DNA from: Clostridia bacterium
GTDB taxonomy: Bacteria; Bacillota; Clostridia; Oscillospirales; Acutalibacteraceae
Direction: 5' to 3'
Assembly (NCBI GenBank): GCA_017521925.1
Contig: JAFXBG010000011.1
Coordinates: forward strand, 1 to 50,517
Length of the DNA stretch: 50,517 nt
Shown in pieces: positions 2,883-42,200 of this stretch; position 1 is the stretch's first letter, and every line of letters starts with the position of its first letter. The notes beneath the pieces are model-generated. The model saw only the letters and a program-made list of their open reading frames with translations. It had not been told where the DNA came from and made no database searches. A program made the position numbers and the translations under genes.

Positions 2883-2900
2883 TGTTAATGAGGTGACAGA

Positions 2901-20492: not shown

Positions 20493-20536
20493 ATTATGTT
20501 ATAAAATGTCGAATTTTGACTTAAAGGAAGATGTTC

Positions 20537-26267: not shown

Positions 26268-26297
26268 TTGACAAATATCGGGTAAATAGGGTAAAAT
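26268..26297 (+). promoter_or_regulatory. Promoter of the T-box operon
   Basis: TTGACA, 18 bp, TAAAAT, about 35 bp before the first leader helix. Between the antiporter terminator and this promoter (26176-26267) I see nothing else. Confidence 0.65.
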
Positions 26298-26330
26298 AAA
26301 TCTAATTTCTTTTATTATGTATTAGTGTAA

Positions 26331-26590
26331 ATGTAATGACGGAGAATGGTTTTTTAAGGATTTCTCAGAGAGCCTGAGTATGGTGTAATCAGGTAAATCC
26401 AAATTAAGCTTCTCACTCCCGAGCAGGTTTACCCAAAGGCTAAGGCTTAGTAGGTATTCACGGTTAGCTTCCGTTAAAGGCTTAAAGTGGTTGTTTTTTT
26501 AATAAAGACAGCAATACGGGTGGTACCGCGGTTAATTATCGTCCCTGAAGCATAAGTATAGCTTCGGGGCGTTATTTATTTTTTTATATT
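26331..26590 (+). ncRNA. T-box leader, branched-chain amino acid type
   Basis: A tRNA-sensing leader in the gap before the isopropylmalate-synthase-like gene. Stem I: GAGAA (26342-26346) pairs with TTCTC (26410-26414), GGATTT with AAATCC (26395-26400), and a distal hairpin CCTGA/TCAGG follows the AGAGAG bulge and carries GGTGTAA. The T-box GGGTGGTACCGCGG (26518-26531) is canonical; its TGGT bulge predicts a tRNA with discriminator A. The specifier lies in AAATTAAGC (26401-26409): AUU (Ile, 26403-26405) or UUA (Leu, 26404-26406); I cannot decide between them. Uncharged tRNA stabilises the antiterminator; otherwise the hairpin at 26540-26571 ends transcription. It therefore links the downstream genes to amino acid starvation, i.e. 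a biosynthetic use. Confidence 0.9.
26540..26590 (+). terminator. T-box-controlled terminator
   Basis: CGTCCCTGAAGC pairs with GCTTCGGGGCG (one bulge) around a short loop, followed by TTATTTATTTTTTTA. The 5' arm shares sequence with the antiterminator region after GGTACCGCGG. Confidence 0.85.
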
Positions 26591-26617
26591 TTTCATTAGC
26601 AAGGAGACAAGAGAAAA

Positions 26618-28024
26618 ATGAATTCGGTAAGAATTTCTGACGTAACTTTAAGGGAAGGCACAACCCACAAGGGTGCGACCTTAAGCTTCAAGGAAAAAAT
26701 CGAAATTGCAAAGCTTCTTGACAAGCTTGGCGTTGATGTTATTGAAATGGCAGCTATTGAAAATACTGCCACAGATACCTTACTGCTAAAAACACTATCT
26801 TCTCTCCTTAAAAACTCTCAGCTTGCAGTTGTTGCAGGTACAACAAAAGAACAGATTGACCAGGCTGCTGCGGCTATCAGCACAGCAAAATCAGGCAGAA
26901 TTATTGTTTCACTCCCTACATCAAATGTAAGAATGGAGTACATAAGCCATGCAAAGCCTGCCGCCATGATTGAAAAAATCAAGGACCTTGTGTCGTATGC
27001 TTCTGAGCGTTGTGGCTTTGTTGAGTTTGAGGCAGAGGATGCCACCAGAAGCGAGCATGAATTTTTACATAAGGCAGTAAACGCTGCTTTGGAGGCAGGT
27101 GCAAAGGCTGTAACAATTTGTGACACAGCTTCTGCTTCGCTTCCTTCTGAGTTTGAAGCGTTAATTGCCGGTCTTTATGAGGCTTGCCCCAAGCTTAAAG
27201 ATGTACAGCTTGGTGTTGCTACTTATAATGAGCTTGGTATGGCTAATGCCTGTGCAGTGTCTGCATTTAAGTGCGGTGCTGAATACATTAAAACCTCCGT
27301 TTCTGAAACAAAGCTTAATTCTACTGAGGGCTTTGTTCACCTGATCCGTTTAAGAGGTGAACAGATGGGTGTTTCGGTTGGTCTTAATGTTACAGAACTT
27401 TCCCGTACTGCAACCCAGATTAAAACAATTGCAAAAACACGCAGAGGGGACAATACTCCCTTTGATAATAAAATCGGCGATACTGCAGATATCGCTATCA
27501 GCAAAACCAGTGATATTTCAGAAATCAGCAAGGCTATCAAAGAACTTGGATATACACTTTCTGATGATGATACAGCAAAGGTTTATGAGGCATTCCTCTT
27601 AACTGCCTCTAAAAAAGAGGTTGGTGCAAAAGAGCTTGAGGCTATTGTAGCCTCTGAGGCTTTGCAGGTGCCTCCCACATATAAATTAACCAGCTATGTA
27701 ATTAATTCAAGTAACGTAATTGCTCCTACAGCACACATTGTTGTTGACAAAAAAGGCGAGGAGCTTTGCGGACTTTCAACAGGTGACGGTCCCATTGATG
27801 CTGCACTTTTAGCATTAGAGCAGATTGTAGGCTGCCACTACGAGCTTGACGATTTCCAGATTCAGGCTGTTACAGAGGGCAGAGAGGCTATGGGTGAAGC
27901 TCTTATCAAACTTCGTTTTGACGGTGTTCTTTATTCAGGCCGCGGTATTTCTACCGACATTATGGGAGCAAGTATCAAGGCTTACCTCAATGCTCTTAAT
28001 AAAATCGTATACGAGGAGGACTAA
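26618..28024 (+). CDS. Isopropylmalate/citramalate synthase-like protein lacking the HxH metal motif
   Basis: 468 residues: an HMGL-like DRE-TIM barrel (about 1-280) and a C-terminal LeuA-type allosteric/dimer domain (about 345-465, ending GRGISTDIMGASIKAYLNAL). The family condenses acetyl-CoA with 2-oxoacids in Leu or Ile synthesis. Key differences: the usual TLRDG is TLREG (R12, E13), and the HxHND metal site of LeuA reads V-A201-T-Y203-N204-E, so both metal-ligand histidines are absent. The allosteric domain is retained. It may be a divergent synthase with other chemistry, or a regulatory or scaffolding subunit. First gene after the T-box; RBS AAGGAGA; 2 bp before the fusion gene. Confidence 0.8.
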   Translation: MNSVRISDVTLREGTTHKGATLSFKEKIEIAKLLDKLGVDVIEMAAIENTATDTLLLKTLSSLLKNSQLAVVAGTTKEQIDQAAAAISTAKSGRIIVSLPTSNVRMEYISHAKPAAMIEKIKDLVSYASERCGFVEFEAEDATRSEHEFLHKAVNAALEAGAKAVTICDTASASLPSEFEALIAGLYEACPKLKDVQLGVATYNELGMANACAVSAFKCGAEYIKTSVSETKLNSTEGFVHLIRLRGEQMGVSVGLNVTELSRTATQIKTIAKTRRGDNTPFDNKIGDTADIAISKTSDISEISKAIKELGYTLSDDDTAKVYEAFLLTASKKEVGAKELEAIVASEALQVPPTYKLTSYVINSSNVIAPTAHIVVDKKGEELCGLSTGDGPIDAALLALEQIVGCHYELDDFQIQAVTEGREAMGEALIKLRFDGVLYSGRGISTDIMGASIKAYLNALNKIVYEED

Positions 28025-28026
28025 GA

Positions 28027-30546
28027 ATGAAACTGTCTTTTTCCACCAACGGCTGGAACGGTTTTACTTGGGAAGATTTTTATACAATGGCAAAGGATTT
28101 AGGTTTTGCCGGTATTGAAATTCACGACGTAAGAGAGCAGGCTTTTCAGGGTGCCAATGGCCCCTTAAAGCAGGAGAATGTAACCAAAACAGCCAGAAAA
28201 ATGGCTAACTTAGGTCTTTCAATTCCCTGTATAAACGTTCTTTGCGACATTTCAAATAAAGATAACTTTGATGATAACGTTACTGAGATTATCGAGCATA
28301 TTTCTCTGGCTAAAAAGCTTAACTGTCCCTTCGTAAGGCTTAGGGCAGGTGCTGAGGGCGGTGCGGAGGTTGACGATATCTGTGCAGAGGTTTTAGCATC
28401 TGTAAAAGGTTTTGCAGAAGAAACCGAGGTAGTGATTCTTGTGGAGACTGTTGGTATTTATGCTGACACCAAAAGACTCGCCGACCTTTTGAATCGCTTT
28501 GCCTGTGATAATATCTCAGCACTCTGGGATTTTAACCACCCCTACAGAGTAGGCGAAAGTCCCGAGCAAACCCTTACAAACTTAGGTGCATATGTAAAAC
28601 ACGTACATATAAAAGATTCCGCTACCACTGATGATGGTTTTGAATACCGCCTTATGGGTGAGGGTGATATGCCGATTGAAAGAATGATGCTTTCTCTTCG
28701 TTCTATTAACTACGAAGGTTTCATTTCTTTCGAGTGGCGTAGCGAATGGATAGAGGAAATCGGCGATGCAGGTATTGTGTTCCCTCATTTCATAAATTTT
28801 ATGAGCCGTTTTGAGCCTGCGAAAACCTCTGCTGATACCCTTTATTATAACAAAGCAAAAACCGGTAAATTTGTATGGAAAAAGGAAACTCTTATTAACA
28901 AAACCTTCCCCGAGGTTTTAGACAAGATGGCTGACCTTTTCCCTGACCAGTATGCCTTCAGATACACAACACTTGACTATACCCGTACATATTCCCAGTT
29001 CAGAGATGACGTTGACGAGTTTGCACGTACACTTATTTCCTTAGGTGTAAAAGCAGGCGACAAGGTTGCGGTATGGGCTACCAACGTTCCTCAGTGGTTT
29101 GTAACCTTCTGGGCAACAACCAAAATCGGTGCAGTTTTGGTTACTGTTAATACAGCCTATAAAATTCATGAGGCTGAGTATCTTTTCCGTCAGTCCGATA
29201 CTCATACTTTGGTTATGATTGAAAACTGCCTTGATGCTGACTACGCAGGTATTATGCAGGAGCTTTGTCCTGAGCTTAAAGATACAAAACCCGGTGAGCC
29301 TTTACATTCAAGACGGCTTCCTTTCCTCAGAAACATTATTACAGTAGGCTTCTCAATGCCTGGATGTCTTACATGGGAACAGTCTTTAGGTTTAGCTTCC
29401 AAAGTTCCCCTTGAAGAGGTTAAAAGAAGAGCCTCTTTAATCGACCCCAATGATGTATGTAATATGCAGTATACCTCAGGTACCACAGGTTTCCCCAAGG
29501 GTGTTATGCTTACTCATTATAATATTGTTAACAACGGTAAGTGTATCGGCGACAGAATGGACCTTTCCACTGCTGACAGAATGATGATTCAGGTGCCTAT
29601 GTTCCATTGCTTTGGTATGGTGCTTTCTATGACAGCCGCCATGACTCACGGTGCTCAGCTTTCGCCAATTCCTTACTTCTCAGCCAAGAATTCTTTGGCT
29701 TGTATCAATAACGAGCGAATCACTTGTTTCCATGGTGTTCCCACAATGTTCATAGCGTTACTTGAGCATGAAGATTTCAATAAAACTGACTTTTCTTATG
29801 TCCGTACAGGTATTATGGCTGGTTCACCTTGCCCCATTTCTGTTATGGAAGATGTCGTTAAGAAAATGAATATGTCAGAAATTACAATTGTTTACGGACA
29901 GACTGAGGCTTCTCCAGGCTGTACAATGAGTACAACTACTGACCCTCTTGATATCAGGGTTGGTACTGTAGGCAGAGCATTGCCTCAGATTGAATGTAAA
30001 ATTGTAAATCCTGAAACAGGCGAAGAAATGCCCGACGGTGAAACAGGTGAGTTTGTAGCACGTGGCTACAACATAATGAAGGGTTATTATAAAATGCCCC
30101 AGGCTACAGCCAATGCTATTGACAGCGACGGCTGGCTTCACACAGGCGACCTTGCCTGCAAGAATCCTGACGGCAACTTCCGTATTACAGGCAGACTTAA
30201 GGATATGATTATCCGCGGCGGTGAGAATATTTACCCCAAGGAGATAGAGGAGTTTATCTATACTCATCCTGCAGTCAGCGACGTTCAGGTTATCGGTGTT
30301 CCCGATGAACAGTACGGCGAGGAGATTATGGCTTGTATCATACTTAAAGAAGGTGAAAGCCTTACCGAGGCTGACGTAAAGCGATATGTGCTTGACCATA
30401 TGGCAAAGCATAAGGTACCTAAGTATGTTGATTTTGTCGAAGCTTTCCCCATGAATGCCGCAGGCAAAATTCTTAAGTATAAAATGCGTGAAGACGCAGT
30501 TAAAAAATACAATCTGTCAAAGGCAGATAAAATCGAAACAGCTTAA
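28027..30546 (+). CDS. Fusion: xylose-isomerase-like TIM barrel + AMP-forming acyl-CoA synthetase
   Basis: 839 residues in one uninterrupted frame. Residues about 1-262 form an AP-endonuclease-2/sugar phosphate isomerase-epimerase barrel (STNGWNGFTWEDF start; acidic and His ligands in VETVG, DFNHP, HVHIKD and FEWRSEW). Residues about 275-835 are an acyl-CoA synthetase: YTSGTTGFPKG at 482-492, YGQTEASPG, TGDL, GRLKDMIIRGGENIYP, and catalytic K814 in AAGKILK. The synthetase half would activate a carboxylic acid to acyl-AMP and acyl-CoA. The barrel's substrate is unknown. Being coupled to the LeuA-like gene and followed by ilvE places it in branched-chain metabolism. RBS GGAGGA overlaps the end of the previous gene. 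Confidence 0.85.
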   Translation: MKLSFSTNGWNGFTWEDFYTMAKDLGFAGIEIHDVREQAFQGANGPLKQENVTKTARKMANLGLSIPCINVLCDISNKDNFDDNVTEIIEHISLAKKLNCPFVRLRAGAEGGAEVDDICAEVLASVKGFAEETEVVILVETVGIYADTKRLADLLNRFACDNISALWDFNHPYRVGESPEQTLTNLGAYVKHVHIKDSATTDDGFEYRLMGEGDMPIERMMLSLRSINYEGFISFEWRSEWIEEIGDAGIVFPHFINFMSRFEPAKTSADTLYYNKAKTGKFVWKKETLINKTFPEVLDKMADLFPDQYAFRYTTLDYTRTYSQFRDDVDEFARTLISLGVKAGDKVAVWATNVPQWFVTFWATTKIGAVLVTVNTAYKIHEAEYLFRQSDTHTLVMIENCLDADYAGIMQELCPELKDTKPGEPLHSRRLPFLRNIITVGFSMPGCLTWEQSLGLASKVPLEEVKRRASLIDPNDVCNMQYTSGTTGFPKGVMLTHYNIVNNGKCIGDRMDLSTADRMMIQVPMFHCFGMVLSMTAAMTHGAQLSPIPYFSAKNSLACINNERITCFHGVPTMFIALLEHEDFNKTDFSYVRTGIMAGSPCPISVMEDVVKKMNMSEITIVYGQTEASPGCTMSTTTDPLDIRVGTVGRALPQIECKIVNPETGEEMPDGETGEFVARGYNIMKGYYKMPQATANAIDSDGWLHTGDLACKNPDGNFRITGRLKDMIIRGGENIYPKEIEEFIYTHPAVSDVQVIGVPDEQYGEEIMACIILKEGESLTEADVKRYVLDHMAKHKVPKYVDFVEAFPMNAAGKILKYKMREDAVKKYNLSKADKIETA

Positions 30547-30579
30547 TATTTATAATTTATAGACAAAGGAGAATAAAAA

Positions 30580-31644
30580 ATGCTGGATATCAAAATTACC
30601 AGAACTCAGACTCCTAAAGAGAAGCCTGATCAGAGCAAACTTGGTTTCGGTAAAATCTTTACCGACCATATGTTTATTATGGATTACACAGAGGGCAAAG
30701 GCTGGCACGACCCCAGAATCGAGCCCTACCACAACTTAAGTCTTTCTCCTGCATCAATGGTTTTCCATTATGGCCAGGAAATGTTTGAAGGCTTAAAGGC
30801 TTACCGTGGTGCTGACGGCAAAGCTCGTCTTTTCCGCCCCGATATGAACGGTAAGCGTACAAACGACACTAACAAGCGTCTTTGCATCCCCGAGCTTCCT
30901 GTTGAAGATTTTGTTGAAGCAGTAAAGGCAGTTGTAAAGGTTGACGAGGACTGGATTCCCACAGCTCCCTCCACATCTCTTTACATCCGTCCCTTTATTA
31001 TTGCAACTGACGACTTCCTCGGTGTTGCACCTTCTAAGACATATATGTTCATTATCATCCTTTCACCCTCAGGGGCCTACTACGAAAGCGGTCTTGCTCC
31101 TGTTGGTATCTGGATTGAGGACGATTACGTAAGAGCTGTAAAAGGCGGTATCGGCTTTGCAAAAACAGGCGGTAACTACGCAGCATCCTTAGCAGCTCAG
31201 GTTAAAGCTCACGACGGCGGTTACAGCCAGGTGCTCTGGCTCGACGGTGTTGAGCGTAAGTATATCGAAGAAGTTGGCGCTATGAACATCTTCTTCAAAA
31301 TCGACGGCAAGGTTGTTACTCCTGCTCTCTCAGGTTCAATTCTTCCCGGTATCACAAGAAACAGTGTTATCAATCTTTGCAAGGATTGGGGTCTTGAGGT
31401 AGAGGAAAGAAAAATTTCCGTTGATGAGCTTATCGAAGCTCAGAAGAACGGTAAGCTTGAGGAGTGCTTCGGTTCAGGTACAGCTGCTGTTATTTCTCCT
31501 GTGGGCACACTTCGCTATAAGGACGAGGTAATGACAATCGGTACAGGTGAAACAGGTGAATTAAGCCAGAAGCTTTACGACACAGTTACAGGCATTCAGA
31601 ACGGCACAGTAGAGGATAAGTTCGGCTGGGTTGTGAACGTATGA
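30580..31644 (+). CDS. ilvE: Branched-chain amino acid aminotransferase
   Basis: 354 residues, PLP fold type IV, the longer BCAT form that interconverts Val/Leu/Ile and their 2-oxoacids with 2-oxoglutarate/glutamate. The PLP lysine is K227 in VERKYIEEVGAMN; GGNYAASL precedes it, and SGSILPGITRNSVI and SGTAAVISPVG are the usual cofactor and substrate blocks. RBS AAAGGAG. It sits 33 bp after the synthetase fusion, and its stop overlaps the ATG of the ATPase gene (ATGA), so it is part of the T-box transcript. In this operon it would run toward amino acid synthesis, accepting 2-oxoacids made by the downstream ferredoxin oxidoreductase (inference). Confidence 0.95.
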   Translation: MLDIKITRTQTPKEKPDQSKLGFGKIFTDHMFIMDYTEGKGWHDPRIEPYHNLSLSPASMVFHYGQEMFEGLKAYRGADGKARLFRPDMNGKRTNDTNKRLCIPELPVEDFVEAVKAVVKVDEDWIPTAPSTSLYIRPFIIATDDFLGVAPSKTYMFIIILSPSGAYYESGLAPVGIWIEDDYVRAVKGGIGFAKTGGNYAASLAAQVKAHDGGYSQVLWLDGVERKYIEEVGAMNIFFKIDGKVVTPALSGSILPGITRNSVINLCKDWGLEVEERKISVDELIEAQKNGKLEECFGSGTAAVISPVGTLRYKDEVMTIGTGETGELSQKLYDTVTGIQNGTVEDKFGWVVNV

Positions 31645-32309
31645 TAAAGACCCCTAAAAGAATAACTCTTTTTGCCGGCCACTACGGTTCAGGCAAAACC
31701 AATATCGCTGTTAATTATGCCTTGAAGCTTAAAGAAATGGGAAAGAATGTAGAGATTGCCGACCTTGATATCGTTAATCCCTACTATCGTACCAAAGACA
31801 GCGAAGAAGAGCTTACTAAAGCAGGTATCAGGGTTATATCCTCAGAGTTTGCTAACTCTAACGTGGATTTTCCTGCAATGCCCGGCGAGGCTTACTCAAT
31901 AATCGATAATAAGGATACATACGCAGTCTGCGATGTAGGCGGTGACGACAGAGGTGCCTATGCTCTTGGCAGATTCCGCGAGGGCATAATGGCAGAAGAT
32001 TACGAGATGTATCTGGTAATCAATAAGTTCCGCCCCTTGACCAGCGATGTTGATTCGCTAAAAGAGATTAAAGAAGAAATCGAAGCTGCCGCAGGTATTC
32101 CTTTTACCGCTATTGTAAATAACTCGAATTTAGGCAGAGAAACCACCGCGGAGGCAGTGCTGAGCTCTCTTGAGTATGCTGAAGAGGCAGCTGAAAAGCT
32201 TAACCTTCCCGTTAAGCTTACGGCGGTTCATGAATCTTTATTTGATGAGCTTAAAGATAAAATAGAAAACTTGATGCCATTAGTTTTGCAACAGCGGAAC
32301 TTCTGGTAA
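31641..32309 (+). CDS. ParA/MinD-like P-loop ATPase
   Basis: 222 residues. Walker A GHYGSGKTN near residues 13-21, a switch I-like DLDIVNPYYRT near 43-53, and CDVGGDDRGAYALG near 95-108 in the Walker B position: a SIMIBI-class NTPase. No transmembrane segment. It overlaps ilvE by 4 bp and precedes the ferredoxin and VOR genes. Relatives often sit next to 2-oxoacid:ferredoxin oxidoreductase operons in Clostridia; a role in cofactor or Fe-S assembly or enzyme positioning is possible, but none is established to my knowledge. Confidence 0.75.
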   Translation: MIKTPKRITLFAGHYGSGKTNIAVNYALKLKEMGKNVEIADLDIVNPYYRTKDSEEELTKAGIRVISSEFANSNVDFPAMPGEAYSIIDNKDTYAVCDVGGDDRGAYALGRFREGIMAEDYEMYLVINKFRPLTSDVDSLKEIKEEIEAAAGIPFTAIVNNSNLGRETTAEAVLSSLEYAEEAAEKLNLPVKLTAVHESLFDELKDKIENLMPLVLQQRNFW

Positions 32310-32311
32310 TT

Positions 32312-32357
32312 TTGACAAATGAGTGAGTTTGTTTTATGATATATACATAACCCACTC
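32312..32357 (+). promoter_or_regulatory. Internal promoter with operator-like repeat before the VOR genes
   Basis: TTGACA (32312-32317), 17 bp, TATGAT (32335-32340). Flanking the -10 box are GAGTGAGTT (32321-32329) and AACCCACTC (32349-32357), an inverted repeat with 8 of 9 pairs. The ferredoxin/oxidoreductase genes can therefore be transcribed separately from the T-box transcript; the XRE-cupin protein at 34991 is a candidate ligand-sensing regulator (inference). Confidence 0.65.
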
Positions 32358-32372
32358 TAAGGAGGAAATAAA

Positions 32373-32576
32373 ATGGCAAAGGTTACTTTTGACAAAGACA
32401 GATGTAAAGGTTGTTCTCTTTGCGTAGGTGTATGTCCTAAGGGCATTGTGGCTCTCTCTTCTGAGCTTAACGCAAAAGGCTACCATCCCGCACAGGTTAC
32501 AGCAGAGGAAAACTGCATCGGCTGTGCTTTCTGTGCTACTATGTGTCCCGACTGCGTAATCACAGTTGAGAAGTAA
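32373..32576 (+). CDS. 2x[4Fe-4S] ferredoxin subunit of the 2-oxoacid oxidoreductase (delta)
   Basis: 67 residues with two complete C-x2-C-x2-C-x3-C sets (CKGCSLCVGVCPKG and CIGCAFCATMCPDC), the separate delta subunit of VOR/KOR-type enzymes. It wires the thiamine-diphosphate subunit to free ferredoxin. RBS AAGGAGG; first gene after the internal promoter; 14 bp before the alpha subunit. Confidence 0.92.
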   Translation: MAKVTFDKDRCKGCSLCVGVCPKGIVALSSELNAKGYHPAQVTAEENCIGCAFCATMCPDCVITVEK

Positions 32577-32590
32577 GGAGGATAAGTTTT

Positions 32591-33652
32591 ATGGCAGATA
32601 AAGTATTGATGAAAGGTAACGAGGCTATGGCTGAAGCCGCTATTATGGCAGGCTGCCGTCACTACCTTGGTTATCCTATTACACCCCAGACAGAAATCGC
32701 CGCTTATATGAGCAAGCGTATGCCTAAGGTAGGCGGTACATTCTTACAGGCAGAAAGTGAAATTTCCGCTATTAATATGGTTATAGGCGTAGCCGCAGCA
32801 GGTAAAAGAGCTATGACATCTTCTTCAAGCCCCGGTATTTCTCTTAAGGGCGAGGGTCTTTCTTACCTTGCAGGTTGCGACCTTCCTGCTTTTGTTGTTA
32901 ACGTTCAGCGTGGCGGCCCCGGTCTTGGCGGTATTCAGCCTTCTCAGGCAGACTACTTCCAGGCTACCCGTGGCACATCCCACGGTGACTATCATATGAT
33001 TGTTCTTGCTCCTAACTCAGTTCAGGAAATGGTTAACCTTACTTTCCAGGGCTTTGATATGGCAGACAAGTACAGAATGACAGTTATGCTTCTTGCAGAC
33101 GGTACAATGGGTCAGATGATGGAGCCTGTTTCCCTTGATATGGGCGAGGTTAAGTCTTACGACAAGCCCTGGGCAGTTACAGGTACAAACTGCGAAAGAG
33201 AGCACAACATTGTTAACTCTCTTTTCTTAAAGCCTGAGCTTTTGGAGCAGAAGAACTTCGAGCGTTTTGAGCGTTACGCTTACATCGAAGAAAATGAGGC
33301 AATGTATGAGGAATACCTTATGGATGATACCGAGGTTTGTATCGTAGCTTACGGTATTTCTGCAAGAATTGCAAAGAACGCTATTGATGCCGCACGTGCA
33401 AAGGGCATCAAGGTTGGTATGTTCAGACCCATTACACTCTGGCCTTTCCCCAAGAAGGAAATCAGAGCTATTGCAGACAGAGTTAACTCTTTCATCAGCG
33501 TTGAGCTTTCCATGGGTCAGCTTATTGAAGACGTTAAGCTTTACACAGAATGCACAAAGCCTGTTTACCTCTGTAACCGTACAGGCGGTATGATTATGAC
33601 TCCCGAAGAGGTTCTGGCTAAGATTGAAGAAGCAGTAGGAGGTAATAAATAA
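32591..33652 (+). CDS. vorB: 2-oxoacid:ferredoxin oxidoreductase alpha subunit (VorB-type)
   Basis: 353 residues, pyrimidine-binding/transketolase-like subunit. KGNEAMAEAA at the start, GYPITPQTEI near 28-37, QAESEISAINMVIGVAAAGKRAMTSS-type block near 55-78, and NVQRGGPGLGG near 98: typical of VOR/KOR alpha chains, closest in feel to the short VorB type. The complex interconverts a 2-oxoacid plus CoA and the acyl-CoA plus CO2 with ferredoxin; it is reversible, so it can carboxylate. The ilvE and acyl-CoA synthetase neighbours favour branched-chain 2-oxoacids over 2-oxoglutarate, but that is inference. The stop overlaps the beta ATG (TAATG). Confidence 0.9.
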   Translation: MADKVLMKGNEAMAEAAIMAGCRHYLGYPITPQTEIAAYMSKRMPKVGGTFLQAESEISAINMVIGVAAAGKRAMTSSSSPGISLKGEGLSYLAGCDLPAFVVNVQRGGPGLGGIQPSQADYFQATRGTSHGDYHMIVLAPNSVQEMVNLTFQGFDMADKYRMTVMLLADGTMGQMMEPVSLDMGEVKSYDKPWAVTGTNCEREHNIVNSLFLKPELLEQKNFERFERYAYIEENEAMYEEYLMDDTEVCIVAYGISARIAKNAIDAARAKGIKVGMFRPITLWPFPKKEIRAIADRVNSFISVELSMGQLIEDVKLYTECTKPVYLCNRTGGMIMTPEEVLAKIEEAVGGNK

Positions 33653-34407
33653 TGGCAGTTGTATTCGAAAAGCCTAAGGCATTAACTGATGCTACACTTC
33701 ACTATTGCCCCGGCTGTACTCACGGTATTATTCACCGCCTTGTTGCCGAGGTTCTTGACGAGCTTGGCGTTCAGGGCAAAACAGTAGGTATCGCATCCGT
33801 TGGTTGCTCAGTTATGTCCTACGATTATTTTGATGTTGATATGGTTCAGGCAGCTCACGGCCGTGCTCCTGCAGTTGCTACAGGCGTAAAGAGAGCTAAC
33901 CCCGAGAACATCGTTTTCACATATCAGGGTGACGGCGACCTTGCCGCTATCGGCACTGCTGAGACAGTTCACTCAGCCGCAAGAGGCGAAAACATCACAA
34001 TTATTTTCGTAAATAATGCAATTTACGGTATGACAGGCGGCCAGATGGCTCCCACAACTCTTCCCGGTCAGGTTACTCAGACCTCTCCCTACGGCAGAGA
34101 TACAAACACAGTAGGCTTCCCCTTAAAGGTTTGTGAGCTTCTCTCAAACGTTGACGGTGCCACATATCTTGAGCGTGTTGCAGTAAATAACGTAAAAAAC
34201 GTAAAGGCTGCTAAAAAGGCTATTAAAAAAGCATTTACATATCAGACAGAGGGCAAGGGCTTTACTCTTATCGAGGTTCTTTCCACTTGCCCCACAAACT
34301 GGGGTCTTACACCTCCCAATGCTCTTAAGTGGCTTGAGGAGAATATGATTCCTTATTATCCCTTGGGTGTATACAAGGATAAATACGCAGAGGAGGAGAC
34401 TAAGTAA
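33652..34407 (+). CDS. 2-oxoacid:ferredoxin oxidoreductase beta subunit (thiamine diphosphate)
   Basis: 251 residues. CPGCTHGIIHRL near 19-30 carries family cysteines, and GDGDLAAIG followed by NNAIYGMTGGQMAPTT is the thiamine-diphosphate/Mg site. VorA/KorB type. It overlaps the gene before and the gene after through TAATG, so alpha, beta and gamma are translated as a coupled set. Catalyses decarboxylation of the oxoacid, or carboxylation in reverse. Confidence 0.93.
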   Translation: MAVVFEKPKALTDATLHYCPGCTHGIIHRLVAEVLDELGVQGKTVGIASVGCSVMSYDYFDVDMVQAAHGRAPAVATGVKRANPENIVFTYQGDGDLAAIGTAETVHSAARGENITIIFVNNAIYGMTGGQMAPTTLPGQVTQTSPYGRDTNTVGFPLKVCELLSNVDGATYLERVAVNNVKNVKAAKKAIKKAFTYQTEGKGFTLIEVLSTCPTNWGLTPPNALKWLEENMIPYYPLGVYKDKYAEEETK

Positions 34408-34943
34408 TGACTACTAATATGCTTATTGCAGGCTTCGGCGGTCAGGGTATCCTTTTTACAGGTAAGTTCCTTGCTTACGAAGGCCTTTTAGAGGGCAGAG
34501 AGGTAAGCTGGCTTCCTTCCTACGGTCCTGAAATGCGTGGCGGTACTGCTAATTGCTCCGTTATCCTTTCCGATACTCCCGTAGGTTCTCCCATTGTATC
34601 TAATCCTGACACACTTTTAGTTATGAACTTACCTTCCCTTGATAAGTACGAGGATGCCACCCAGGCAGGCGGCAAGATTTTTGTTGACTCTGCACTTATC
34701 GGCAGAAAGGTAAACCGTACTGATGTAGAGGCTTTCTACATCCCCGCAACAAAGCTTGCATCTGACGAAGGACTTACAGGTCTTGCAAATATGATTCTTT
34801 TAGGCTTCGTTATCAAGCACACAAACGTTATTCCTTTTGAGAATATCGAGCGTGCTTTAACTAAGGTAGTTCCTGCTTCCAAGCAGCACCTTATTGAGTC
34901 TAACAGAAAAGCATTAGAGCTTGGCTACAACTACGAGGGCTAA
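34407..34943 (+). CDS. 2-oxoacid:ferredoxin oxidoreductase gamma subunit
   Basis: 178 residues, the CoA-binding POR/KOR gamma domain. GFGGQGILFTGKFLAYEG near 9-26, SYGPEMRGGTANCSVILS near 41-58 and LANMILLGFVIK near 130 are the family blocks. The last member of the four-subunit set; 47 bp later comes the regulator. Confidence 0.93.
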   Translation: MTTNMLIAGFGGQGILFTGKFLAYEGLLEGREVSWLPSYGPEMRGGTANCSVILSDTPVGSPIVSNPDTLLVMNLPSLDKYEDATQAGGKIFVDSALIGRKVNRTDVEAFYIPATKLASDEGLTGLANMILLGFVIKHTNVIPFENIERALTKVVPASKQHLIESNRKALELGYNYEG

Positions 34944-34990
34944 TCCTCATAAAATAAGCTCAAAATTTATAGTATAAGGAGATAACCGCT

Positions 34991-35542
34991 ATGACCGAAC
35001 AGTTAAAAGAAATCGGCACCCGACTTGAAGAACTCAGAGATATCTGTGGTGTATCTGCAGAAGAAATGGCTGAAAAGCTTGGCATGAGCGTCGAGGAATA
35101 TCGTAACTACGAAGAAGGTCAGCTTGACTATTCCTTCAGCTTCCTGTATAATGCCGCCTCAGTCCTTGGTGTGGAAGTCGTCGATATTATGAGCGGTGAC
35201 TCTCCCAAGCTTTCTACCTGCGTTGTTACCAAAAAAGACCAGGGTATTGTTGTAAAGCGTAACCAGTCCTATAACTATATGCACCTTGCATATACCTTCC
35301 GTAACAAAAACGCAGAGCCTATGATTGTTACAACTGAGCCTACAAACAAAATTCCCGTAATGCATACTCACGAAGGTCAGGAGTTTGACTACATTCTTTC
35401 AGGCACAATGAAGCTGTATATCGAGGATATTTCCTATGAGCTTTCTAAGGGCGACAGTGTTTACTACGATTCAAGCAAACCTCACTCTTTTAAAGCTATC
35501 GGTGACAAGCCTCTTAAGTTCCTCGCAGTAGTAATAAAGTAA
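34991..35542 (+). CDS. XRE-family regulator with C-terminal cupin domain
   Basis: 183 residues: a helix-turn-helix domain (about 5-62; VSAEEMAEKLGMSVEEYRNYE) and a cupin sensor barrel (about 100-183) with the metal-ligand pattern H-x-H, E, then H in MHTHEGQEFDYILSG and SKPHSF, so a metal site is likely. Such XRE-cupin proteins sense small ligands and often regulate the neighbouring acyl-CoA or amino-acid catabolic genes. Sandwiched between the VOR genes and an acyl-CoA synthetase, it probably reports on a short-chain acid or CoA ester (inference). RBS AAGGAG upstream, 18 bp to the next gene. Confidence 0.87.
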   Translation: MTEQLKEIGTRLEELRDICGVSAEEMAEKLGMSVEEYRNYEEGQLDYSFSFLYNAASVLGVEVVDIMSGDSPKLSTCVVTKKDQGIVVKRNQSYNYMHLAYTFRNKNAEPMIVTTEPTNKIPVMHTHEGQEFDYILSGTMKLYIEDISYELSKGDSVYYDSSKPHSFKAIGDKPLKFLAVVIK

Positions 35543-35560
35543 TTAACGGAGAATTTTGTT

Positions 35561-37288
35561 ATGGCAATTTATGAAGAATATTTAGGCAGAAGCCGTGATT
35601 CTTTTGAATCCTACGAGGACTGCTGTAAAAACTATAAGCTTACATTCAAGGCTGACTTTAACTTCGCTTATGATGTTATTGACAAGCTTGCAGAGGAAAA
35701 GCCTGACAAGCTGGCGCTTCTTTATGTAGCTGAAGACGGAACTGAAAAACGTTTTACCTTCCGTGATATGATGCTTTGGTCAAACAAGGCGGCTAACTGC
35801 CTTAAAAAGCTTGGCATCAAAAAGGGCGACAGGGTCCTGTTAGTATTAAGAAGAAGTTATCTTTTCTGGATTACCCTTCTTGGTATGCACAAAATCGGTG
35901 CCATTGTTGTTCAGGCTAACGATATGCTTAAAACAGGCGAGTACATCTACCGTTGTAATGTTGGCGGTATTTCTGCCGTTATCCTTACAGGCCACGGCAA
36001 ATGTACCGAAATTTACGACGAGGGCGAGGGCGAGTATGAATATGTTCGCCTCAAGATGGTTACTGAGCATAAAAAAGCCGGTGAGCATTGGATAGACTTT
36101 GAGGAAGAGCTGGAAAAAGCCTCCGATAAGTGGACACGCCCCACAGGCAAGGCTAATACTAAGGCGTCTGACCCTATGATGATGTGCTTCTCATCAGGTA
36201 CTACAGGTTACCCCAAGATGATTGTTCACGATTTTTCTTATCCATTGGGTCATATTGCAACAGGTGTTTTCTGGCATCGTGTTGTTGACGGCGGTCTGCA
36301 CTTCACCATTTCCGATACAGGTTGGATGAAATCTGTATGGGGTAAGCTTTACGGTCAGTGGTTCGGTGAGTCTGCAATTTTAGTTTACGATTTTGAACGT
36401 TTTGTTCCTAAAAACATCTTAACCGTTCTGGAGAAATACAAGGTTACAACCTTCTGTGTACCTCCCACAATGTACCGCTTTATTTTGCAGGAAGATGTGG
36501 CTTCTTACGACCTTTCATCCATTACTCATTGCTGTACAGCAGGTGAGGCTTTACCTTCTGATGTTTTCCTTAAGTGGAAAGAAATTACAGGGCTTGAGAT
36601 TTACGAAGGCTTTGGTCAGAGCGAAACTCCCGTTTGCGTTGGTACGTTCTATCCTTGGAACAAGCCTGTGCCCGGTTCAATGGGTCTGCCTGCTCCCGGT
36701 TTTGACATTACAGTCCGTGATTTAGACGGCAACGAGTGCAAGCAGGGTATTACAGGTGAAGTTTGCATCAAAGCTCCTACCTTAGCAACCCGTCCAAGAG
36801 GACTTCTTTGCAACTACAACTGGAGCAAGGAAGATACCAAGGAAAAGTGGTACTCAGGCTACTATCACACAGGTGATACAGCATACCGCGACGAGCAGGG
36901 CTATTTCCACTACGTCGGCAGAAATGACGACGTTATCAAGTCTTCGGGCTATCGTATAGGACCTTTTGAGGTTGAAAGTGTACTTCTTGAGCATCCAGCG
37001 GTTTTAGAGGCAGCAGTAACAGCTTATCCCCACGAAACCCGTGGTCAGATTGTTAAGGCTAACCTTGTCCTCAGAGAAGGTTATAAGCCCAGCGACGAGC
37101 TTACTGAGGAACTTCAGCAGTATGTTAAGCAGAATACTGCTCCTTATAAATATCCCAGAATTATCGAATATTTCGAATCTCTGCCCAAAACATTCTCAGG
37201 CAAAATCCGCCGAGTAGAAATCCGTGACAAAGATATTGAGAAATATAGGGCTGAGAAGAGAGCTTTAGAAAAGTTCACATCTGATTAA
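35561..37288 (+). CDS. AMP-forming acyl-CoA synthetase (short/medium chain)
   Basis: 575 residues, ANL superfamily, near the ACSM/medium-chain and acetyl-CoA-synthetase-like enzymes. SSGTTGYPKM near 207-216, YEGFGQSE near 347-354, YHTGDTAYRD, GRNDDVIKSSGYRIGPFEVE near 456-475, and catalytic K548 in FSGKIRR. It converts a carboxylic acid, ATP and CoA to acyl-CoA, AMP and PPi. Located directly after the VOR operon and its regulator, it could feed isobutyrate, isovalerate or 2-methylbutyrate as CoA esters to VOR, or run with VOR in oxidative direction. It is the second synthetase in the cluster and is not fused. RBS CGGAGAA. Confidence 0.9.
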   Translation: MAIYEEYLGRSRDSFESYEDCCKNYKLTFKADFNFAYDVIDKLAEEKPDKLALLYVAEDGTEKRFTFRDMMLWSNKAANCLKKLGIKKGDRVLLVLRRSYLFWITLLGMHKIGAIVVQANDMLKTGEYIYRCNVGGISAVILTGHGKCTEIYDEGEGEYEYVRLKMVTEHKKAGEHWIDFEEELEKASDKWTRPTGKANTKASDPMMMCFSSGTTGYPKMIVHDFSYPLGHIATGVFWHRVVDGGLHFTISDTGWMKSVWGKLYGQWFGESAILVYDFERFVPKNILTVLEKYKVTTFCVPPTMYRFILQEDVASYDLSSITHCCTAGEALPSDVFLKWKEITGLEIYEGFGQSETPVCVGTFYPWNKPVPGSMGLPAPGFDITVRDLDGNECKQGITGEVCIKAPTLATRPRGLLCNYNWSKEDTKEKWYSGYYHTGDTAYRDEQGYFHYVGRNDDVIKSSGYRIGPFEVESVLLEHPAVLEAAVTAYPHETRGQIVKANLVLREGYKPSDELTEELQQYVKQNTAPYKYPRIIEYFESLPKTFSGKIRRVEIRDKDIEKYRAEKRALEKFTSD

Positions 37289-37308: not shown

Positions 37309-37392
37309 TGTAGTAGGGGAGGGGTCTCCCCTCCCGAAAGTTAACGGTAAATCCGAGGTTACGGGAGGCGGAACGCCTCCCCTACAGTAGTG
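37309..37392. repeat. Palindromic intergenic repeat (MITE/REP-like)
   Basis: Two GC-rich hairpins: GGGAGGGG-TCT-CCCCTCCC (37317-37335) and GGGAGGCG-GAA-CGCCTCCC (37363-37381). The outer ends TAGGGGAGG and CCTCCCCTA are inverted. The composition differs sharply from the flanking AT-rich DNA. It could act as a terminator for the synthetase gene; no other terminator is visible there. Confidence 0.65.
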
Positions 37393-37440
37393 TTTGCAGT
37401 AAAATCAGACACACTACAATTATGTTTAATTGGTGATTTT

Positions 37441-38049
37441 ATGAAACAAAAGTTTTTTGCTTTTTTTAAGCGTTTTGGAAAATTTTTCAGATATAACTTA
37501 AAAAACTGTTTACTGCTTTTCCTGACATTTTTCAAAATCGGTGCCTTTACTTTTGGCGGCGGTCTTGCTATGATTCCTTTTATCGAACGTGAAACTGCCG
37601 AAAAGCACAAGTGGATTGATAAAGAGGATTTGCTTGATATAGTAGTAATTGCCGAGTCCACACCGGGCCCTATTGCAATTAATGCCGCTACTTTTGTAGG
37701 CTACAAAACCGCAGGAGTCTTAGGGTCAGCCTGTGCAACCTTCGGTGTTGTGCTTCCTTCGTTCCTTATTATCCTGCTGTTATCGTTCTGCCTTGATAAA
37801 GTTGTTGCACTCAAGCCCGTAGCTTATGCACTATGGGGCATAAGAGCAGGTGTGCTGGCATTGATAGCAAAATCCTTCTGGTCCCTTTTCAAAAGCTCCA
37901 AGAAAAATGTGTTTTCAATAATAATGATGATTCTTGCATTTTTAGCCGTAAGCATCTTTAAGCTTGATGTAATTATTGTTGTTGCATCTGCAGCTGTTTT
38001 AGGAATTGCGGCCTACTTTATCTCAAAGAAGGGCGGTGAGAAAAAATGA
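37441..38049 (+). CDS. Chromate transporter family protein, first half
   Basis: 202 residues, CHR (ChrA) family, single-domain form. A basic N-terminus, then FKIGAFTFGGGLAMIPFIERE near 25-45 and AESTPGPIAINAATFVGYKTAG near 62-83, the two family signatures, with about five or six hydrophobic segments. Split CHR proteins act as pairs; the partner starts inside this gene's stop (ATGA). The real substrate in gut anaerobes is unknown; chromate or sulfate-like anions are the family guess. ATG 37441 is used; a GTG at 37390 would add residues encoded by the repeat edge. Confidence 0.87.
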   Translation: MKQKFFAFFKRFGKFFRYNLKNCLLLFLTFFKIGAFTFGGGLAMIPFIERETAEKHKWIDKEDLLDIVVIAESTPGPIAINAATFVGYKTAGVLGSACATFGVVLPSFLIILLLSFCLDKVVALKPVAYALWGIRAGVLALIAKSFWSLFKSSKKNVFSIIMMILAFLAVSIFKLDVIIVVASAAVLGIAAYFISKKGGEKK

Positions 38050-38636
38050 TTTATCTTGAACTTTTTCTCACTTTCTTAAAGCTGGGTGCTTTTACCTTTG
38101 GCGGCGGTGCCGCTATGATGCCATTTATTCAGGAAGAGGCTGTAAGCAAATGGGGATTTACCCCTGAGGAAATTATCAATTTTATCGCAATTTCCGAGTC
38201 TACTCCGGGACCTTTTGCGGTCAATATTGCAACCTTTGTAGGCACTGAAAAAGGCGGTTTTTTGGGTGCGGTATGTGCAACTTTAGGTTTGGTGCTTCCG
38301 TCGTTCATAATCATTCTGGTAATTGCAAAATGCTATGAAAAATTTAAAACAAATAAAGTTGTAGCGGGAGCTATGACAGGTTTAAGACCAACCTCGGTAG
38401 GTCTTATTGCAGCCGCTACGTTGTCTATCGGTATGGAGGTGCTGTTTTCTTCAGGAGTTTCCTTGGCTACAGTTATAAGCTATGAGTTTATAGCAGCTTT
38501 GGCTATTTTTCTTGCTATGTTTTTACTTTGCTTGTTTATCAAGAAATTCAACCCTATATATGTAATTCTCATCACCGCTGCACTTGGTATTGCTGTCGGC
38601 TATGGGGGAGAACTTATGGGAATTTCCATTATATAA
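38046..38636 (+). CDS. Chromate transporter family protein, second half
   Basis: 196 residues, the paired CHR half, homologous to the preceding gene: LKLGAFTFGGGAAMMPFIQEE near 9-29 and SESTPGPFAVNIATFVGTEKGG near 49-70. About six membrane segments. It overlaps the first half by 4 bp, so the two are likely made in equal amounts and assemble as a heterodimer. Confidence 0.87.
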   Translation: MIYLELFLTFLKLGAFTFGGGAAMMPFIQEEAVSKWGFTPEEIINFIAISESTPGPFAVNIATFVGTEKGGFLGAVCATLGLVLPSFIIILVIAKCYEKFKTNKVVAGAMTGLRPTSVGLIAAATLSIGMEVLFSSGVSLATVISYEFIAALAIFLAMFLLCLFIKKFNPIYVILITAALGIAVGYGGELMGISII

Positions 38637-39255: not shown

Positions 39256-42200
39256 ATGCAAAAGACAAGAAAACTCATCTCGTTGCTCCTTGCAGTTATG
39301 ATGGTTCTTTCTATGTGTACTGTTGGTATGGTTAGCGTTTCAGCTTTACCTGAAGACGCTATCATCAACGACGCAGAAGGCAATGACGCAAGCGGCATCG
39401 ACGGCGATATTTTTGGTCTTATGGGCGACACTGACGATAACGATACTGTTAATGTTAAAGACGCTACTCAGATTCAAAAATTCGCAGCAAAGCTCATTGA
39501 GCTTGACGAAGCAAGCACAGCTCTTGCTGATGTTAACCTTGACGATAAGGTTAACGTTAAGGACGCAACTGCTATCCAGAAATGGGTTGCTAAGTTTGAC
39601 GTTGAAGAGCCTATCAACTGCTTGGTTTATATCCCTGCAGCAGAGCCCACAACTGTAGCAACAGTTCCTACCACTGTAGCTCCTACAGAGACTACTGCAG
39701 TCGAGACTAAGCCTACTATTCCTGTAATTATTCCTACAACTGTAGCAACAGAACCCTCTGAGGTTCCCACTACAGCTAAGCCCACAGAGGCTCCTGCAAC
39801 TACTGTAGCTCCTACAACAGCTAAGCCCACAGAGGCTCCTGCAACTACTGTAGCTCCTACAACTGCAGCTCCCACAACAGTTAAGCCCACAGAGGCTCCC
39901 GCAGAGAAAGTTACAATCTACTTCACAAACAATCAGGGTTGGGAAGTAGTAAACATCTACTACTGGGGCGGCACAGGTGCTGCTTCTGCTGAGTGGCCCG
40001 GCCAGGAAATGACTTACGTTGAAACAAGCGACCTCGGTCAGGATATCTATTCTTATGAGATTGCTGCTGACGTAGCAGGTATCGTATTCAACGGTAAAGA
40101 ATCCGCAACAAGCGAAAAGGGTAACAACTACCAGACAGTAGATATTACAGAAGGTATTGTTAACAATGCAGGTTTCTATCCTGAAGAGCAGAAGGTAGAT
40201 CCTGAAGGTCCTGACAACGACAAGTGGATTTGCGGTACATACACATATGAATCCAAAGAAGAAATCACAACAGAAGCTGACGATGTTGTTGGCCCCGGCT
40301 ACTACCTTGTTGGTACTATCGGCGGTCAGGAGCTTATGACAGCTGATACTCTTACAGCAGACAGAAAGCTTACTCAGGCTTCTAACGGCGACTATGTTCT
40401 TTTCTGGACAACTACAGGCGGCGACGAATATAAGGTTGCTTACTACGATGGTACAGAAATCACAAAGTTATTCAAAGCTGAGGGTGAGGATCCCTACATT
40501 ATCGGTAAAGAATCCAATAAGATTGGCTACTGTAAGGTTGAGTTCAACCCCGAAGGTAAAGACAATTGGTCATATAAATATATGACAATTAACGTAACTA
40601 CAGAGCGTCCCGATGATCCTGAAGATACAGGAAACCAGGATGCAACCCAGAAGCCCCAGGGCGAAAAGTCTCTTATCCTTCTCAGAGGCGACTTCAACGA
40701 TTGGAAGGGCGACGACTTAACATTCTACAAGACTTCTGATCCTGATGTTGTTACAATTACAATTGAGTTAGAAGCCGGCAAGTATGAGTTCAAACTCAGA
40801 GACAGAAACGGCGAAAGCTTATGGTATGGTAACCCTGGTACAATCAAGGATACAACATATCCCGATTCTAAGAACGGTTGGGAAATGAAAGAAACCGATG
40901 GTAACTGTACATTAGAAGCAACAGGCGGTACTTACACATTCAACTTCAATACTTCTACAAAGAAGCTTACAGTTCTTCACAACGTACCTGTTGTAACAGA
41001 CCCTGCTGAAACAACAAAGGCAGACGAGCAGGAAACAACTCAGAAGCCCCAGGGTGAAAAGTCTCTTATCCTTCTCAGAGGCGACTTCAACGATTGGAAG
41101 GGCGACGACTTAACATTCTATAAGACTTCTGATCCTGACGTTGTTACAATTACAATTGAGTTAGAAGCCGGTAAGTATGAGTTCAAACTCAGAGACAGAA
41201 ACGGTGACGATCTTTGGTATGGTAACCCTGGTACAATCAAGGATACAACATATCCCGAGTCTAAGAACGGTTGGGAAATGAAAGAAACCGATGGTAACTG
41301 TACATTAGAAGCAACAGGCGGTACTTACACATTCAACTTCAATACTTCTACAAAGAAGCTCACAGTTCTTCACAACGTACCTGTTGTAACAGATCCTGTT
41401 GAAACAACAAAAGTTGACGAGCAGGAAACAACTAAGGTTGACCAGCAGGAAACAACTAAGGTTGACGAGCAGGAGACAACAAAGGTTGACGAGCAGGAAA
41501 CTACTCAGAAGCCCCAGGGTGAAAAGTCTCTTATTATTCTCAGAGGCGATTTCAACAACTGGGAAGGCGAAAAAGACACATTCTTAACAACATCCAATCC
41601 TGACATTGTTACTGTTACTATTGAGTTAGAAGCTGGTACATATAATTTTAAACTCAGAGACAGAAGTGGTGACGATCTTTGGTATGGTAACAATGGTACA
41701 ATCAAAGATTCAACAGGTGAAGGCGGTTGGACTTTCACTAAAACCGAAGGTATGGGTGGCCACTGTACATTAGAAGCTACTGGCGGTACCTACACATTCA
41801 ACTTCAACACTTCTACAAAGAAGCTTGTTGTTCTTCACAACGGTTCTGTTGTAACAGATCCTATTGAGGATAACACTGATAATGATGATCCTGATGTAGT
41901 AGATGCAGGTTACTACCTCGTTGGTAAGTTAAACGGCAAAGAGTACTGGGATGCTGCATCCATTACAGCTGACAGAAAGCTCAAGGAAACTTCCACTGAG
42001 GGCGAGTACAAGCTTAACTGGACATTCTATGATGGCGATCAGGTTAAGGTAGTATACTTTGATGGTACAAGCATAAAGACTTGGTACAAGGATAATGCTG
42101 ACAACTACAATATCGATTCCAAAAAGGCTGGAGACGGTGTATTATATTTCAGACCTGAAGGTAATGACAGCTGGTCCTACACATTCTTCACAGTACAGCC

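Follow-up and report, generated by a model that had tools for sequence, protein, structure and literature searches.

What is an operon for that places a LeuA-like gene, an aminotransferase, two acyl-CoA ligases and a 2-oxoacid:ferredoxin oxidoreductase of the VOR type behind a T-box leader, a switch that responds to an uncharged tRNA? The question is raised by positions 26268-37288 of a 50,517-nucleotide stretch of DNA (below, the window), which is contig 11 (JAFXBG010000011.1) of a 1.41 Mb, 72.6% complete assembly (GCA_017521925.1, here G000 or the window genome) of an uncultured gut Clostridia bacterium of the family Acutalibacteraceae. Here a promoter-like site, a T-box with its terminator and ten genes, four of them for VOR subunits, follow one another on the plus strand (Table 1), as the original prediction had described. 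On the basis of the sequence comparisons reported below, we consider it highly probable that this operon encodes an anabolic route that starts from branched short-chain acids and is induced by leucine starvation, and that relatives would make all three branched-chain amino acids in this way.

The proposed route would run as follows. The T-box would permit transcription in response to an uncharged CUC-reading tRNA-Leu; FUS, a TIM barrel fused to an AMP-forming acyl-CoA ligase, would convert isovalerate to isovaleryl-CoA, VOR would carboxylate this with CO2 and reduced ferredoxin to 4-methyl-2-oxopentanoate, and IlvE would turn the latter into leucine. In relatives, two further ligases, each fused to an XRE-cupin regulator and placed behind a T-box of its own, Ile or Val, would activate 2-methylbutyrate and isobutyrate, with VOR and IlvE common to the three branches. 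The LeuA-like protein, which we call leuAx, would be a LeuA without catalysis that, through the conserved dimer (regulatory) domain, probably subjects FUS to feedback by leucine. The T-box with its specifier, the gene families, the lost LeuA catalytic residues, the distribution across genomes and the split at ligase residue 256 are seen in the sequences; the substrates named here, the direction of VOR, and the roles of leuAx, the TIM domain, the P-loop protein and the XRE-cupin protein, are those that we infer.

The T-box switch and its specifier

An Rfam scan of the window at gathering thresholds gives a single match, the T-box (RF00230), with 109.3 bits against a gathering score of 93 (E 2.3e-23). 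In the Rfam alignment the specifier triplet is CUC (leucine), followed by the conserved A, and the antiterminator T-box sequence GGGUGGUACCGCGG is aligned in the leader, where its UGGU would pair with a tRNA having an A discriminator. None of 200 shuffles is as stable as the terminator hairpin with its U tract. The specifier rule was checked in the window genome and five relatives on T-boxes whose downstream genes have a known specificity: pheS (UUC), cysS (UGC), valS (GUC or GUA), alaS (GCC or GCU), trpB (UGG), thrS (ACC) and true leuA (CUC) are all as expected, and one control, ilvA of G148, is ambiguous. According to the portion of a published paper used here, specifiers agreed with gene function in all verified cases (PMC2494555).

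Among the matches listed are 80 named leuAx loci, whose T-boxes were located by a motif scan and read by a parser. On the whole, 53 T-boxes precede leuAx in these loci, and the 52 that could be parsed are all Leu (36 CUC and 16 CUG; the parser gave a second candidate in 10 of the 52, and the first was taken). Before the XRE-cupin ligases of the same loci we find 46 T-boxes, namely 22 Ile, 14 Val, three more that were parsed as CCC and are GUC (Val) when read by eye, and seven that the script left unparsed. A tRNA-dependent control of the operon is predicted.

Co-occurrence with loss of the classical pathway

If the operon makes amino acids, it should accompany the loss of the classical genes, and this check, proposed with the original prediction, was run on 200 genomes of the family, 52 with leuAx and 148 without. 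LeuB is present in 4 of the 52 and in 108 of the 148 (p 3e-17), IlvC in 8 and 103 respectively (p 9e-12), with both p values ignoring kinship, while VorB of the window type (at least 654 bits) is found in 44 of the 52 and in 3 of the 148. In nine genera that contain both states, tallied by hand, LeuB is missing only on the leuAx-positive side in seven and the reverse in none, with two ties. Among 60 genomes tested, true LeuA is found in all 12 with LeuB and in none of the 48 that have leuAx and lack LeuB; among 14 tested, LeuC-sized aconitase frames (425-457 amino acids) are found in 5/5 genomes with LeuB and 0/9 without. IlvA is absent in five of 18 genomes tested, and all five have an Ile unit, a ligase behind an Ile T-box.

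In some genomes the set of units matches the gap in the pathway. Leu and Ile units, with no Val unit, are present in G088 and G138; these genomes lack LeuB and IlvA and keep IlvC, and the citramalate route is closed to them too because LeuB is absent. In G040, which has no leuAx, only IlvA is absent among IlvA, IlvC, LeuB and LeuA, and the only unit, judged by eye, is that for Ile; a citramalate route is possible in this genome.

IlvC was counted as present at 241 bits or more (111 genomes). Counting every IlvC match (165 of 200 at E 0.001) was dropped, as the next match below 241 bits scores 43. FUS was also tried as the marker and dropped for its weaker association (IlvC 29/78 with and 82/122 without the fusion, LeuB 27/78 and 85/122, when seven fragments are placed in the fusion group and 13 ligase-only matches in the other), since FUS is also found by itself, for the most part in LeuB-positive genomes. 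Overall, the distribution supports the reductive route as a stand-in for the classical pathway; for the window genome the support concerns leucine only and is weak.

These results bear directly on a catabolic reading, in which IlvE deaminates, VOR oxidises to acyl-CoA and the ligases run in reverse or recycle acids, yielding ATP and reduced ferredoxin. VOR and IlvE are reversible, VOR types are best known from amino acid fermentation, and the VOR genes of the window are preceded by a second promoter-like site. However, it is starvation that turns T-boxes on, the specifiers correspond individually to Leu, Ile and Val, and the clusters accompany the loss of LeuA, LeuB and IlvC, the opposite of what fermentation predicts, so that we regard catabolism as unlikely. 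The original chain from acid to acyl-CoA, 2-oxoacid and amino acid gains support from this loss together with the matched Leu, Ile and Val T-boxes in relatives, and its argument that starvation control would mean synthesis and not catabolism is strongly supported by the genome comparison.

Ligase units behind Ile and Val T-boxes

The ligase was sought in the 52 leuAx-positive genomes and eight same-genus partners, and upstream T-boxes were read for most copies, some further partial copies lying outside this reading. Two T-box ligases were read in 31 of the 52 genomes, and every one of the 31 has one Ile and one Val (four readings by eye and two second parser candidates included). Another 15 have the Ile unit only and one has the Val unit only, and no T-box ligase was read in five: G166, which has no ligase match, G174 and G194, in which no T-box motif was seen, and G062 and G065, whose upstream sequence lay outside the reading. 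In 51 of 56 copies from the named set and the window, the XRE-cupin regulator and the ligase form one open frame; the five unfused exceptions are the window and four loci, with ligases that all belong to one small clade.

Residue 256 (window numbering) is Gly in 29/29 Ile-type and Ala in 26/26 Val-type ligases labelled by their T-boxes (n=55, no two identical; four of the Val labels were read by eye), and it is the only one of 575 columns that separates the two types without overlap. After thinning at 80% identity the split is still complete (Gly 14/14, Ala 10/10). The labels change at least three times on the ligase tree, compared with a mean of 18.5 when shuffled, and therefore residue 256 followed repeated switches. 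In addition, there are 18 unlabelled ligases: six upstream copies have Gly, six copies before the P-loop gene have Ala, Gly is also found in a single-unit copy behind an Ile T-box, and five of the window type have Met (three), Leu or Ala.

The second ligase of the window, which has no T-box of its own, carries Met at this residue and falls in a small clade of its own. Its best solved relative is MacsMa of Methanosarcina acetivorans (PDB 3ETC), which prefers 2-methylbutyrate. With the numbering fixed by Gly459-Tyr460-Lys461 in both proteins, MacsMa has Gly at the separating residue, four residues before the pocket residue Trp259, and a larger acid with a smaller side chain at 256 fits. MacsMa is archaeal, and the portion of its description used here mentions neither an XRE-cupin fusion nor a T-box. 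The substrate of the second window ligase is perhaps isobutyrate, a guess by elimination because G058 has this ligase type together with an Ile unit.

MbcS of Staphylococcus aureus belongs to the same family of short branched acid ligases, although the window protein misses the MbcS equivalog cut-off (NF047394, 414 vs 850 bits). As far as the consulted part of its report goes, the acids that MbcS activates to supply lipids are 2-methylbutyrate and isobutyrate, and isovalerate is hardly used (PMC10026030). This fits a leucine unit that has another ligase, FUS. Since MbcS serves lipids, unlike the amino acid role proposed here, the ligases might supply branched-chain membrane lipids while VOR and IlvE merely interconvert pools, and the MacsMa/MbcS-like second ligase, as well as a leuAx-FUS pair without a VorB match in G166, agree with this. 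Control by the charging of tRNAs for three amino acids and lost synthesis genes are unexpected for a lipid supply, and we hold that explanation to be improbable.

T-boxes were also seen before ligases that may act on aryl acids. In the window genome (contig 8, 85839-86084; locus L285) a Tyr (UAC) T-box at 1340-1585 of the locus precedes an AMP-forming acyl/aryl-CoA ligase gene at 1601-3271, and in G148 (contig 33; L284, 4896-6784) the genes behind a Phe (UUC) T-box encode a phenylacetate-CoA ligase of the PaaK type and an ACT-domain protein. With one example each, and specifiers read from the Rfam alignment, they suggest that the same principle would yield tyrosine from an aryl acid and phenylalanine from phenylacetate.

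A LeuA-like protein without catalytic residues

The original prediction had counted a LeuA-like protein among the genes, and the likeness holds for the domains while the catalytic residues are gone. The C-terminal dimer domain (LeuA_dimer, PF08502, 108 bits) is the best conserved part of leuAx; the protein misses the LeuA equivalog cut-offs (310 vs 532 for NF002086, 288 vs 599 for TIGR00973), and the metal-binding HCHND of three solved LeuA proteins (HCHDD in one) aligns to ATYNE. The set of 80 homologues examined, made up of the window protein and those from 79 of the 80 named loci, has no member with HxH, and position 13 is acidic in 23 (Glu, including the window) and not acidic in 57. Thus leuAx shares the fold and the LeuA_dimer domain with 2-isopropylmalate synthase, LeuA, but has lost HxH and mostly the R-D/E motif, and, unlike LeuA, it sits mostly where LeuB is absent; it is probably no working synthase. 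A still active condensing enzyme with altered specificity (citramalate- or homocitrate-type) that makes an unnamed product of the operon would account for the retained HMGL-like fold score, the LeuA_dimer domain and the Glu at position 13, but is very improbable in view of the missing HxH, the 57 non-acidic homologues and the absence of LeuB in 48 of 52 leuAx-positive genomes.

A class-wide leuAx profile matches 49 of 391 genomes, of which 45, in 19 families, were counted; the four weakest (309-334 bits) were left out because they look like true LeuA. By their titles, the 80 named loci are all metagenome-assembled or uncultured, and many come from the guts of ruminants and other herbivores. 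No cultured named species with leuAx is among the matches listed, Ruminococcus albus and R. flavefaciens being outside the comparison.

FUS and the enzymes of the proposed route

Wherever leuAx is present in the FUS loci of the family (40, of which 28 have leuAx), as well as in the 80 named loci, it adjoins FUS. The TIM barrel of FUS contains E140, D168, H194 and E236, which we take to be metal residues; all four are intact in the window protein and in 12/12 stand-alone copies, and in 16/29 copies linked to leuAx. Both barrels, of leuAx and of FUS, may thus be drifting toward a regulatory role. From its association with the Leu T-box, FUS is predicted to be an isovalerate-CoA ligase. The 12 stand-alone loci (L045, L049, L051, L057 and eight more) show a Leu-reading T-box motif in the four named cases, above the Rfam gathering score at L057 and not at L045, and LeuB is kept in 11 of the 12 genomes.

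As for the other enzymes, IlvE exceeds its equivalog cut-off, and the delta, alpha, beta and gamma subunits of VOR lie in one operon (32373-34943). Among them, the alpha subunit VorB scores above its subfamily cut-off, and beta and gamma below theirs. The VorD-type frame is shorter than the length limit of the open reading frame list and was read from the sequence, with the frame checked; its homologues in relatives are 58-76% identical. On branched 2-oxoacids VOR would work in the carboxylating direction. In the clusters seen, the P-loop gene is mostly directly upstream of vorD, and its product may possibly act in Fe-S maturation. The XRE-cupin ligase units stand mostly beside P-loop-vorDBAC, often with ilvE, in the 40 FUS loci and the 80 named loci.

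The window genome and the exceptions

In the window genome an ilvA-ridA-ilvB-ilvN-ilvC-ilvD set (ridA, ilvB and ilvN named by eye) stands under its own Ile T-box. Hence the Ile/Val half of the classical pathway, whose complete presence without label from branched acids would count against the original prediction, is present, while neither LeuB nor LeuC was found in the 72.6% complete assembly. The operon here most likely serves leucine and not all three amino acids, because its sole T-box is Leu and the ilvA-ilvD set is present; the earlier suggestion that valine, leucine and isoleucine could all be made would stand for the three units across relatives and not for this operon. Two genomes of the same genus illustrate both states. 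In G074, Ile and Val units are present and IlvC and LeuB are both missing, with a Leu T-box at the end of one contig and leuAx-FUS at the start of another, and G185 has the classical genes and no match to leuAx, FUS or VorB.

Several observations weigh against the proposed route. In the window genome the absence of LeuB and LeuC is weak evidence at this completeness, and an XRE-cupin-ligase fusion (766-amino-acid frame; L198, 3236-5650, contig 10) stands behind an Ile-reading T-box although ilvA-ilvD is present, so isoleucine looks doubly served. Because the second promoter-like site follows the P-loop gene and precedes vorD, not every gene need depend on the T-box; moreover, VOR enzymes can also work in the oxidative direction. 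The motif scan gave no T-box upstream of leuAx in 27 of the 80 named loci, in part because contigs end or leuAx sits inside a longer operon. Four leuAx-positive genomes (G056, G133, G148 and G194) keep LeuB, LeuC, true LeuA, IlvC and IlvA, and therefore the route can be redundant. IlvC is absent also in 45 of the 148 leuAx-negative genomes. Among the 44 genomes with leuAx and without IlvC, 16 have no Ile and Val pair; some of these are at contig ends or had no upstream fetched, and some have an extra ligase without a T-box, but G022 (96% complete) and G162 (90%) lack IlvC and have the Ile unit only.

A VorB match (E 1e-60) is missing in three leuAx-positive genomes, G037, G062 and G166. The last is 97% complete, LeuB-negative, and positive for IlvA and IlvC; no T-box was found at its leuAx (contig 17, L054 and L270), and the genome gave no XRE-cupin ligase match. 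The leuAx-FUS pair of this genome must either function in another way or be a remnant. G166 was considered as a clean leucine-only case and rejected, as the VorB match and the T-box are both missing, and because of it the anabolic reading is held slightly less firmly.

Organization of the locus

The promoter-like site ahead of the T-box is weak evidence alone, since 24 sites of that score occur in the region against 18.4 (sd 4.1) in shuffles.

Table 1. Features of the operon and its leader in the window
Feature	Positions	Strand	Basis
Promoter-like site TTGACA-18-TAAAAT	26268..26297	+	11/12 consensus positions
T-box leader, specifier CUC (leucine)	26327..26549	+	Rfam RF00230, 109.3 bits
Intrinsic terminator of T-box, stem CCUGAAGC/GCUUCGGG and U-rich tail	26536..26592	+	fold z -4.1
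leuAx, LeuA-like without catalytic HxH	26618..28024	+	PF00682 (HMGL-like), PF08502 (LeuA_dimer)
FUS, TIM barrel (AP_endonuc_2) fused to AMP-forming acyl-CoA ligase	28027..30546	+	domain matches
ilvE, branched-chain aminotransferase	30580..31644	+	TIGR01123 420 bits, cut-off 250
P-loop ATPase, ParA/CbiA-like	31641..32309	+	weak matches only, below cut-offs
Second promoter-like site TTGACA-17-TATGAT	32312..32340	+	11/12 consensus positions, equal score
VorD-type ferredoxin subunit (delta)	32373..32576	+	two 4Fe-4S-type cysteine motifs, by eye
VorB, alpha subunit of 2-oxoacid:ferredoxin oxidoreductase	32591..33652	+	NF005507 527 bits, cut-off 399
VOR beta (ThDP) subunit	33652..34407	+	TIGR02177 131 bits, below cut-off 262
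VOR gamma subunit	34407..34943	+	NF006323 119 bits, below cut-off 235
XRE-cupin regulator, separate gene in the window	34991..35542	+	PF07883, PF13560
Second AMP-forming acyl-CoA ligase, MacsMa/MbcS-related	35561..37288	+	3ETC 633 bits; Met at 256

Elsewhere in the window, a pair of proteins like DUF2229 and BcrA-BadF type CoA-enzyme activases lies upstream of the operon (20531-24720). A chromate transporter-like pair (37390-38636) precedes a secreted-looking protein of 1464 amino acids (39256-43650), in which a dockerin-like repeat near the N-terminus and further repeats were seen by eye.

Relation to known systems and significance

The chemistry proposed for the window operon is that of the rumen bacterial route from isovalerate to leucine, isobutyrate to valine and 2-methylbutyrate to isoleucine. 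Rumen reductive carboxylation was reportedly described by Allison, Bryant and Doetsch in 1962, Robinson and Allison in 1969 and Allison and Peel in 1971. By their titles these classic papers deal with the conversions themselves, whereas the present description concerns genes, namely a set with fused ligases and a dead LeuA, and three T-boxes that match it. Classical T-box ilv-leu operons follow the same starvation logic, as the Ile T-box of the ilvA-ilvD operon in the window genome shows, but differ from the window operon in enzymes and carbon source.

In the parts of the recent literature that we draw on, reductive carboxylation in rumen bacteria is said to have been reported decades ago, and branched short-chain acids have been called ruminococcal growth factors since 1962 (PMC7356843), while a 2020 paper on rumen Prevotella states that their conversion to branched-chain amino acids is still not proven (PMC7709123). 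For the archaeon Methanobrevibacter ruminantium, isoleucine synthesis from 2-methylbutyrate by reductive carboxylation was inferred from a broken usual route, and the portion of the genome paper used here mentions neither a T-box nor a ligase triad (PMC2812497). No description of the combination of the gene set, one switch per ligase, the dead LeuA and the fused ligases was found in the open-access literature searched, most subscription journals being outside the search; in the portion of the main text of PMC2494555 used here, oxidoreductase, acyl-CoA and ketoisovalerate go unmentioned. The pathway is thus known in kind, and what would be new is a gene system built of tRNA-sensed modules, in which LeuA is dead and the ligases are fused to sensors.

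A wider proposal is tentative, and we would put its chances at somewhat less than even: a general gut strategy in which each uncharged tRNA would switch on the matching acid ligase (isovalerate for Leu, 2-methylbutyrate for Ile, isobutyrate for Val, perhaps aryl acids), with leuAx as a LeuA turned leucine sensor that controls FUS. As it stands, the gene set supplies candidate genes for a rumen pathway that for six decades has been known chiefly from its chemistry. The T-box code would name the product of each ligase, residue 256 would serve as a one-residue predictor of the substrate, and metagenomes could be scored for branched-acid cross-feeding. The calling of auxotrophies would change as well, in that a genome without LeuABC may still make leucine; and in genomes of this kind, what looks like LeuA need not be LeuA.

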